From Struthio camelus (taxonomy: Eukaryota; Chordata; Aves; Struthioniformes; Struthionidae), in NCBI RefSeq assembly GCF_040807025.1, contig NC_090968.1:5941906-6005905 (forward strand): 64,000 nucleotides of DNA. The letters run 5' to 3'. The position numbers and the translations under genes were made by a program. The notes beneath the pieces were generated by a model that was not told the DNA's origin, did no database searches, and saw only the letters and a program-made list of their open reading frames with translations. Below are positions 3,597 to 58,565 of this stretch, in pieces. The number at the start of each line of letters is the position of its first letter. The first letter of the stretch is position 1.

Positions 3597-7510
<3,914 letters not shown>

Positions 7511-21175: not shown

Positions 21176-29991
<8,816 letters not shown>

Positions 29992-47372: not shown

Positions 47373-51839
<4,467 letters not shown>

Positions 51840-55200: not shown

Positions 55201-56839
55201 GTTAGGAATGGTAACAGGCCTCCAACCCATCCTTCCTTCACACAACCACCAGCAAGGGTTCTAATTTCTCAGCTCCTTACCACATTGAGAATGATATGAT
55301 GCAGGCAGCGCACACCCAGGATTTTATTCTCCTCCTGGTAGTCATCTGAGATGAGCAACGACGGCGGGAGAACACTCTCCAGGTAACGGCTGAGCCAGGG
55401 CCGGGTGATGTGAAGCAGCGTCCAGGAGAACACGTGCTTCGTGGCAGGGTTGCACTTCCAAGCGTCTCTGGAAACATAAACAAGCTCCGTGAAAACCGGA
55501 AGGAATGAATCCTCGTTTCCTATGGATTTGGGCCTCTCTGCTGGCAGCAAACTTTGACTGATTTTTTTTTCCCCCCCTCCATGACTGGAGTATTAGTAAA
55601 GTCTATCTCCCATGTTCATCGTCCAGTGTCTTGTAACACATGAAGTCACATAGCTACGTTCCCCCTGCTAGAAGGGCTCCGTCTTTACCCCGTTCTTTTC
55701 AGCAAACTCATGTAAATGTAATCATTTCTGAAGGCTCTGCCCCCCATCAGCTACGGCTTAACGGCTTGTCGGAGTCACAACAAAGATGGACTCACAGCTG
55801 ATGGCATCATCTTTGCTTCCTTAGGAACGCAGCCAATTCTCTGCAGAGCTCCTCGCGGAGCCAGCGGCGAGGCTTCCACTGCCTGCGCAGCATGGACCGC
55901 TGCACCCACACACTGTTACTCCAGGAAGCTCCCCGTTTACCTCAGAGATACTTGATGGACCAGGCCAGCTAACGCAAAGCCTCCCACGAGCCAGCGTTAC
56001 CTCCACGATCCCCACGACCTGCCCCACCTAAAAGCCTTGGTATTGCCTACGTAGAGGCATGCCGCCCTCTCCATCGCCGCCCTCCTTCCCTGTCCTACTC
56101 ACTTGGTCAGCTCCTGCTTCAGGAGCCCCATCACTGCTGCAAACCTTCCTTCCTCCTCTTCGTCCTGCCCGCGGAGGAATTCAGGCACCGAGCCGCAGCC
56201 CGTGGCCCGAAGCAGCCCCGCCAGCAGCTCCTGCGCCACCGACCGCGACCCGGGGGTGGTCCAGGGCCTCTCCGCAGCGTGGCTGGCCGCAAAGACGTAG
56301 GCGGGCCCCACCGCGGCGCGCAGGAGCGGCCCCACCGCGGGGCCCCCCCGGGACCGCTGCCCCTCGGCCGCCTGCAGCTCGGCCAGCAGGAGGAGGAAGG
56401 CGGCGCCCACGTCCGCCGCCCTCTCGGGCACGTCCCCAGCCTCCGGCTCCCGCTCCCGGGGCTCCCGGGGCGCCGCGTAGCCGCCCAGCGCCGCCGCCAG
56501 CGCGGCCAGCGCGGCGGGGCTCAGCCCCCGGCGGAGCCAGCCGCAGTCGGCCGCCTCCAGGCGGGCCCGCAGGCCCCGCACCGCCGCGGCCCGGGCCCCG
56601 CCGCTCGCCCCCTCCGACAGCAGCGGCCCGAGCTCCGGCGGGACCGGCTCGGGGCCGGGGCCGGGGCCGGGCTCGGCCCGGTGCCCGCCGGGGCTCGGGG
56701 GCCGCGACAGCCTGCCGAGCTCCGGGACCCGCCCGGGGCCCCCGCCGCTAACGGGCACCGCAAACCGCGCCGCGCCCGCGACACTGTCGCGAACACTGCC
56801 GTAAAGGCGGCGGGGAGGGGGCGTGGCCGCGCGGCGCAT
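52298..56839 (-). CDS. TTI2: TELO2-interacting protein 2
   Basis: Seven exons: 56839-56103, 55467-55281, 54352-54260, 53855-53671, 53559-53416, 52821-52659, 52378-52298. They total 1590 bases, 529 residues (human 508), with junctions in frame. TTI2 is part of the TELO2-TTI1-TTI2 co-chaperone that, with HSP90 and the R2TP complex, matures the PIKK kinases (ATM, ATR, DNA-PKcs, mTOR, SMG1, TRRAP). The protein is a stack of alpha-helical HEAT-like repeats. Recognised stretches include RPWTTP-type residues in exon 1, KHVFSW, ISDDYQEENKILGV, AVLLCLLDLLPVLE, and RHLKRLERVILGYLEV. Exon 1 is extremely GC-rich and Ala/Gly/Pro/Arg-biased. Its N-terminal 100 residues align poorly with mammals. Only one in-frame Met exists before residue 230, so 56839 is the start. 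The head lies 219 bases from SNORD13. Confidence 0.94.
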
Positions 56840-57057
56840 AAATTAGCATGTTTAACAGCGGGCGGCCGCGCCAACGCCGCGGGTCCCGGTGCGGAGCAGA
56901 GCGGCGCCGCGAGCCCCGAAGCGGGCGGACGAGGCGGGGAAGGCGCGGAGGGAGCGCGAGGTGGGGCGGGGGGGCGGCAGAGCGGCGGCCTGCCGCCTCG
57001 CCGTGACCTGGGGGCGGGGGGCGCGGCGGGGTGGGCGGCCCGCGGCGGGCGCGCGCC
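56840..57057. promoter_or_regulatory. Shared GC-rich promoter between TTI2 and SNORD13
   Basis: Only 218 bases separate the TTI2 start codon (minus) from the SNORD13 5' end (plus). The stretch is very GC- and CpG-rich with several GC boxes. The same head-to-head pairing is known in human on 8p12. The TTI2 transcription start must lie within it; a CATAAATTA-like AT island sits at the TTI2 ATG. Confidence 0.75.
56998..57010 (+). promoter_or_regulatory. PSE-like element upstream of SNORD13
   Basis: TCGCCGTGACCT differs at one base from the first part of the vertebrate snRNA proximal sequence element (TCACCNTNAC...). It lies about 48-60 bases before the SNORD13 5' end, the canonical PSE distance. 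There is no TATA box at -25, which fits RNA polymerase II snRNA-type transcription. The 3' half of the consensus (A-rich) is not kept. Human U13 is known to be an independently transcribed, capped snoRNA. Confidence 0.45.
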
Positions 57058-57153
57058 GATCCTTCCGGTTCATTGCGAATGATGAATGGGAGCGTCACGC
57101 GCATGCGTGAAATGTGCCGACCTGGTTACGACAGGGCACAGCCCCTTCTGAGC
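57058..57153 (+). ncRNA. SNORD13: C/D-box small nucleolar RNA U13
   Basis: It aligns end to end with human U13 from memory: start GATCCTT, GTTCAT, C box ATGATGA (57079-57085), a CACGC/GCGTG hairpin (57095-57108), the GAAATGTGCC segment, GGTTACGAC, GGGCACA, and D box CTGA (57148-57151). TGTGCC and GGCACA form a stem that presents the second antisense element. U13 is not a methylation guide. It pairs with the 3' end of 18S rRNA on both sides of helix 45 and directs NAT10 acetylation of a cytidine there. The length here is about 96 bases against 104 in human, with short losses after GATCCTTCCG and before GGTTACGAC. Location beside the TTI2 5' end matches human. Exact 5' and 3' ends are inferred from the alignment. 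Confidence 0.92.
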
Positions 57154-58565
57154 GGCCGGGGGATGTCGCATTGAGTCGTTTTCCCGCGGAAAAAAGGGGG
57201 GCGGGGGGGGTACAGTGCTTCCACGAGAAAGACTTTTGGAGGTGCAGGGACCCCCTCCTGCCTGTGCGCAGCTCGGGGGTCTGGCAGCAGCTAAGTGGGA
57301 CATGGCAGTGCGCTGTAGTGGGGTCACGGCTGGGTTAGGCTCTGGTGTGCAGCTGTGGGGGCCCCTGGGCACAGCATCTCCCCTGCGCACGGTCAGGGTC
57401 ACAGGCACAGCCGGATGGTGGCCCAGCCACAGTAAGCAGAGGGGTCCCCCAGGCACAGCTTTTGGGGAACCCCTTGGGAATGGGGCAAGGGGCAGGCACA
57501 GCTGGATGAGGGCCCTGAGCGCAGCTCCATGCAGGCCTGCGCCCTCCTTGCTGGAAACGGTCAAAACTGCCTGTGCGCTATTTCCAGCTCAACATTAACC
57601 TCTGCGCTACTTCCCGCTTGGGGCTATTTCCAGTTTAAGGCTATTCTGGGCAACTTTAGAAATTCATAGGCTGCATCTGGCTGCCGAGCAGCCATTCCCA
57701 GCCTGCCCCGACGGGGTTGCAGCCCCTCATGCAGCCTGGTTTTTGCTCCCAGAAAGCGCAGCGGGTTTTGGCCTCAGCAGGGGCCCTCAGCCCGCGAGCC
57801 CCTGCACCCTCTGCAATCAGCACAAAGCGCTGCCGGAGCTGCGCTGGGCTTCCTGCGCTCATGGGGACAGGCACAGGCTCCGCCGAAGAAAAGGGAGCTG
57901 AAACTCAGAGCCCTGCACCTAAAGAAACACCCCAGCCCTTAACTGTGTGGTCTGTTATACGTGATTTTTGCCTGCAAAATAACACTTTGTGTTTTGCTTA
58001 AACAAAACCATTCCTTTGTGCCAGGCAAGGAGGTACCAGCCTCCGTCTGCCACTTTTCTGGCTGTCTCTGTACGTGCAATACGGACACTTCACGCTGCCA
58101 GATGCCAGCACACTGCGGCAGCAGGGAAGGCATGTCCAAGTTATGTCTGTTCACCAGGGAACCGCTTGTGACTGCCGCATGTCCTGGAGGCTGCACATTA
58201 CTGCTCTGCCCGCAACTCTGCGAGGGGCTTTCTGGGCTGCTCAATGCCCTTTAGAAGCAACATCTGTTCATAAAATATTTGCTAGGTGCAAAGGCTGCCC
58301 TTACACTGTCGGTGCTGCTGGCACGACAACCTTGCCACACTGGCAGCTGGTGACATGGGGAGGGTGACTTGTCACTGCATCACCCCATGCTGCAGCAGCC
58401 CTGGACAAGCCAGAGAAGCCAGCCCAGACAAGCAGGGTCGGGGGTGGATGTGGTTAGGGCACAGCTTTGTCCCAAGCCTCTTGTTTCCTTAAGAAGCAAC
58501 AACATATTTTTTTCCCAAAACACTGCCAGGCCCCCCGGCCCTCAGCAAGCACTCACAGTTGAAAC
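57154..58565. other. Gap between SNORD13 and the 3' end of RNF122
   Basis: No protein-coding exon or RNA is recognised. The first 60 bases after SNORD13 contain a GTTTT then AAAAAAGG arrangement (57178-57197) that only loosely resembles the snRNA 3' box. The remainder is GC-moderate with short chance frames on both strands. Confidence 0.55.

Follow-up and report, generated by a model that had tools for sequence, protein, structure and literature searches.

A working U13 (SNORD13) box C/D snoRNA gene of the ordinary kind almost certainly lies at 57058..57153 on the forward strand of the ostrich DNA analysed here, a 64-kb stretch that we call the window. The annotation is sound and of a kind already known. 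It holds little surprise and raises no new question about U13 itself. What it provides is an exact, promoter-supported site for a gene missed by protein-based annotation, in a very GC-rich island. The locus is presumably transcribed. The gene and its parts are as follows.

57058..57153, plus strand: U13 (SNORD13) snoRNA gene; the RF01210 match runs from 57059, and the G at 57058 adds one pair with 18S
57058..57067, plus strand: first of two segments antisense to 18S, forming 10 bp with CGGAAGGAUC close to the 3' end of 18S
57079..57085, plus strand: C box AUGAUGA, from the sequence (TGATGA at 57080)
57095..57110, plus strand: internal hairpin of 6 bp with loop GCAU, from folding
57119..57132, plus strand: second of these segments, with 8 bp and 5 bp separated by a G/A mismatch at 57124
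57148..57151, plus strand: D box CUGA, from the sequence

The original prediction named this gene from its letters and proposed beforehand a covariance search with the Rfam U13 model as its test. In that search, 57059-57153 (+) scored 54.7 bits with RF01210 (snoU13), above the gathering score of 46 and with E = 1.6e-8, and the identity stands. The alignment spans model positions 1-104 of 104, the full length. Its ends agree with the predicted start and end at 57058..57153, the one extra base being the 5' G that pairs with 18S. Among 4227 Rfam families, RF01210 gave the sole gathering-level match on either strand of the window, and refetched copies of the locus (L001 and L002) returned an identical 54.7 bits. 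Besides U13, a lax Rfam scan of 56000-58200 found one match, to an HIV element and at chance level (E = 0.88), with 12.4 bits where the gathering score is 104. A tRNA scan in its bacterial setting found none.

It is vanishingly improbable that the match is a chance resemblance within a GC-rich CpG island. The surrounding 56000-57200 is 76% GC, and the whole U13 RNA folds no better than its shuffles (z -0.92, 33/200 as good), yet the E value of 1.6e-8 already covers 64 kb, both strands and all 4227 families, and it belongs to a full-length match. A hand-written pattern (ATCCTT, C box, GTTACGAC and CTGA, in that order), composed with the U13 locus in view, occurs once across both strands of the window and in 0 of 100 dinucleotide shuffles of it. 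Chance was rejected on these two grounds, the strength of the RF01210 match and the absence of the element order from shuffles.

The anatomy is that of a U13 RNA. Both boxes were found in the box test, and the C box, D box and internal stem that had been proposed are present at 57079-57085, 57148-57151 and 57095-57110. Folded alone, 57093-57112 reaches -8.7 kcal/mol (z -2.60), with 2 of 200 shuffles as good. The 5' end of the RNA, GAUCCUUCCG, forms 10 uninterrupted base pairs with 18S CGGAAGGAUC, and the second segment (57119-57132) gives a duplex energy of -18.8 kcal/mol. The claim that both 18S segments are present in the right order therefore held, except that the second is not fully complementary, with a G opposite an A at 57124.

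The pairing was drawn against an 18S 3' end whose letters, like the C1842 numbering, were assumed, because the genome gave only two dispersed 18S fragments. Against this assumed end, the bipartite complementarity flanking the helix 45 cytidine is present, and by the assumed numbering the target cytidine, C1842, sits between the two paired 18S segments. Rfam recognises one of the two genomic 3'-end fragments (L040, G000:C11:16348312-16348357; L041, G000:C4:27447349-27447393) as 18S. The target of the first segment is intact in L040 and has one base changed in L041. Both fragments carry a T at the base that would be ac4C1842 in the assumed numbering. Deamination is the plain cause since the site is a CpG, and two copies prove nothing.

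Reasoning from human and yeast, we expect that the C and D boxes of the U13 RNA would recruit C/D proteins and that the RNA would pair with 18S to either side of the helix 45 cytidine, which is C1842 in human. This pairing would hold the cytidine unpaired, and NAT10 would then acetylate it. We infer the cap, the protein binding, the pairing in the cell and the role in 18S acetylation from orthology with human SNORD13 and from work on yeast snR45. In human SNORD13 knockout cells, 18S ac4C1842 is lost (PMC10464549). Yeast snR45 likewise pairs in two parts around the acetylated helix 45 cytidine and does the same job, and a passage of PMC5464676 calls it the functional orthologue of U13; it differs in belonging to another organism. 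A Northern blot has measured U13 in chicken DT40 cells, according to a supplementary figure legend of PMC4148344. The names U13, SNORD13 and snoU13 are absent from the main text of an avian RNA survey (PMC4378963).

With vertebrate U13/SNORD13 (RF01210) the ostrich gene shares the full-length model match, the C and D boxes, the hairpin and the two 18S antisense segments, as well as a TTI2 gene on the opposite strand (in mouse) and promoter elements of its own. Compared with the RF01210 consensus, its linker ahead of the second 18S segment is shorter, and the segment itself carries one mismatch, which the consensus lacks. Both departures could be read as signs of a silent copy of U13, either a pseudogene or a retrocopy. 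So could a genome-wide RF01210 scan in another mode, which scored the locus at 40.5 bits, below the cut-off, with a match two bases shorter. Two genome searches nevertheless returned no other copy. The RF01210 scan of the 1.45-Gb genome gave no second U13 at E up to 0.001, and the 96-base DNA query gave the U13 locus alone at E up to 10. "Single copy" here means that none was found, because the genome search scores the best candidates only; it also skips very common words.

The upstream region also bears on the choice between a working gene and a pseudogene. Two elements were recognised there.

56998..57018, plus strand: PSE-like element, where SNAPc would be expected to bind, starting at -61 from 57059; found with a matrix from the same genome
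56842..56849, plus strand: octamer-like DSE ATTAGCAT at -217; this variant was found twice upstream of U5

The PSE matrix describes a 21-base element and was built from seven promoters of U1, U2, U3, U4, U5 and U8 genes of this genome, with the alignment of its rows judged by eye and the U13 sequence at hand. Loci were fetched from the same genome for U3 (3/3), U4 (5/5), U1 (15/42), U2 (8/25), U5 (5/5) and U8 (1/1). We presumed as real genes the three U3, one U4 (L006), 15 U1, eight U2, two U5 (L034, L035) and the U8 (L039), and as retrocopies the weaker matches of U4 (L007-L010) and U5 (L036-L038). These labels are our own, by score and flanks, and six of the seven presumed retrocopies exceed the Rfam cut-off. 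The flanks of L008 and L009 are identical. Outside the promoter question, 27 equal-score U1 genes form one array at G000:C3:703427-851422, spaced by about 5.3-5.9 kb, and 11 high-scoring U2 genes are clustered on C35.

The element at 56998-57018 is similar to those of U5 and U8 and scores 16.9, the top position on either strand of the window; the next best, on the opposite strand at 57381, scores 14.3. When the 300 upstream bases were shuffled, the U13 score was reached anywhere in 1 of 2000 shuffles, and in the slot -66 to -51 in 0 of 2000. In 32 shifted slots upstream of U13 the score is at most 1.7. With its own family left out of the matrix, U8 scores 17.1, U5 16.1 and U3 9.0, followed by U2 (-0.0 to 6.6), U4 (4.5) and U1 (2.0). 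The U1 score falls elsewhere than the hand-picked U1 site, which the matrix misses. By these left-out-family scores, the matrix performs well on the U5/U8/U13 kind and poorly on U1, U2 and U4. All seven presumed retrocopies fall below zero (-18.1 to -1.1).

All nine listed promoters (three U3, two U2, and U1, U4, U5 and U8) have an octamer between -207 and -248 with no more than one mismatch. The U5 promoter carries the ATTAGCAT variant at -239 and -224, identical to that of U13 at -217. In 28 of 5000 shuffles, an octamer-like site fell between -260 and -190. A PSE-like element at -61 and an octamer-type DSE at -217 support a predicted pol II snRNA-type promoter belonging to U13 itself. The pairing of a GC-rich PSE-like element near -61 with an octamer at -207 to -248 is suggested as a discriminator between snRNA-type genes and retrocopies in this genome. 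Few vertebrate snoRNAs have their own promoters, and U13 is among those listed in a passage of PMC3349704. Human SNORD13 is among the SNAPc-bound pol II genes and has POU2F1 and GABP peaks and no ZNF143 peak (PMC3499247). The ostrich gene differs from human in that no GABP-like pattern was found; short patterns for GABP-type, general ETS and ZNF143-type sites gave no hit within 400 bases upstream of U13. A bacterial promoter and terminator scan, inapplicable here, found nothing.

Downstream, a canonical 3' box was not found within 200 bases of U13 (best score 1.0), a further point in favour of a pseudogene. The boxes of U1-U5 score 17.3-21.4, being themselves in the matrix, and U8 reaches only 3.6. 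The 3' box is a usual feature of snRNA genes and is not known to be defining for U13. The U8 (SNORD118) locus L039 of the same genome also lacks a detectable canonical 3' box and is a close parallel in other respects, with a PSE-like element closely similar to that of U13 and an octamer-like site at -223 (U13, -217); it differs in its RNA family, RF00096. By eye, a similar CCGC(A/G)GAAA..GGGG stretch occurs about 29-46 bases past the RNA end in both U13 (57184-57199) and U8 (L039 1653-1665).

The neighbouring gene is TTI2, for which two frames were identified.

56099..56839, minus strand: TTI2 first coding exon, an open frame from the only early ATG, head-to-head with U13
55272..55592, minus strand: frame with a further TTI2 exon (9wjy_B, E = 1e-28)

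TTI2 had been predicted to adjoin U13, and the matches of both frames to PDB chain 9wjy_B, TELO2-interacting protein 2, confirm it. The match of the 56099-56839 (-) frame has E = 1.7e-29 over residues 102-245, with no Pfam match at E 0.01. The 55272-55592 (-) frame also scores 24.4 bits with Pfam Tti2, just below the cut-off of 25.2. U13 and TTI2 lie on opposite strands, head-to-head and about 220 bp apart. They share one CpG island (56000-57200, CpG observed/expected 0.97). Human SNORD13 is, we presume, likewise placed beside TTI2.

In mouse, Tti2 adjoins Snord13 on the opposite strand, as stated in a passage on mouse chromatin in PMC5454292. The arrangement is probably old, since mouse has it too. 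That passage was the only joint statement on U13 and TTI2 among the literature passages covered; PMC8269103 also contains both names. The neighbour held in common with mouse is a third argument against a pseudogene, beside the failure of both genome searches to return a second copy and the promoter-like elements at the positions they occupy in real snRNA genes. On these grounds that reading was rejected, and we regard it as very improbable. The locus is best taken as a working U13 gene.

The only early in-frame ATG of TTI2 is at 56837-56839, and two bases separate it from the U13 octamer. Because of this position beside the octamer, the TTI2 start site probably lies within the U13 promoter region, unless an upstream exon exists. 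The same closeness raises the idea that U13 and TTI2 form one compact two-way promoter with a single Oct-1 site serving both, which we consider unlikely. If it were so, supply of the guide for 18S acetylation would be tied to supply of the TTT chaperone.

Further along the window lies MAK16, for which one frame is given here.

49273..49446, plus strand: frame with a MAK16 exon (8fkp_NM, Protein MAK16 homolog, E = 2.6e-27)

MAK16 frames, partly read by eye, occupy the plus strand at about 48.3-51.7 kb, with 48676-48945 and 49273-49446 tested; the gene is convergent with TTI2. It had been placed within 6 kb of U13, which is borne out by the last MAK16 frame (by eye), ending near 51.7 kb. The meaning attached to this nearness in ribosome production found no support, because TTI2 intervenes. 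Just upstream of the MAK16 frames, 47595-47957 is a tandem repeat with a 43-base unit, 8.6 copies and 94% matches. Elsewhere in the window, 6803-7507 has a strong Pfam Fez1 match (E = 7.1e-68), and we take this gene to be probably LZTS1. Two minus-strand frames match Pfam ATP synthase alpha/beta, 22099-22473 with 32 bits, above the cut-off of 29.5, and 25906-26394 with 20.1 bits, below the cut-off of 20.9. Both are probably exonic and come from a gene for a V-ATPase B subunit.
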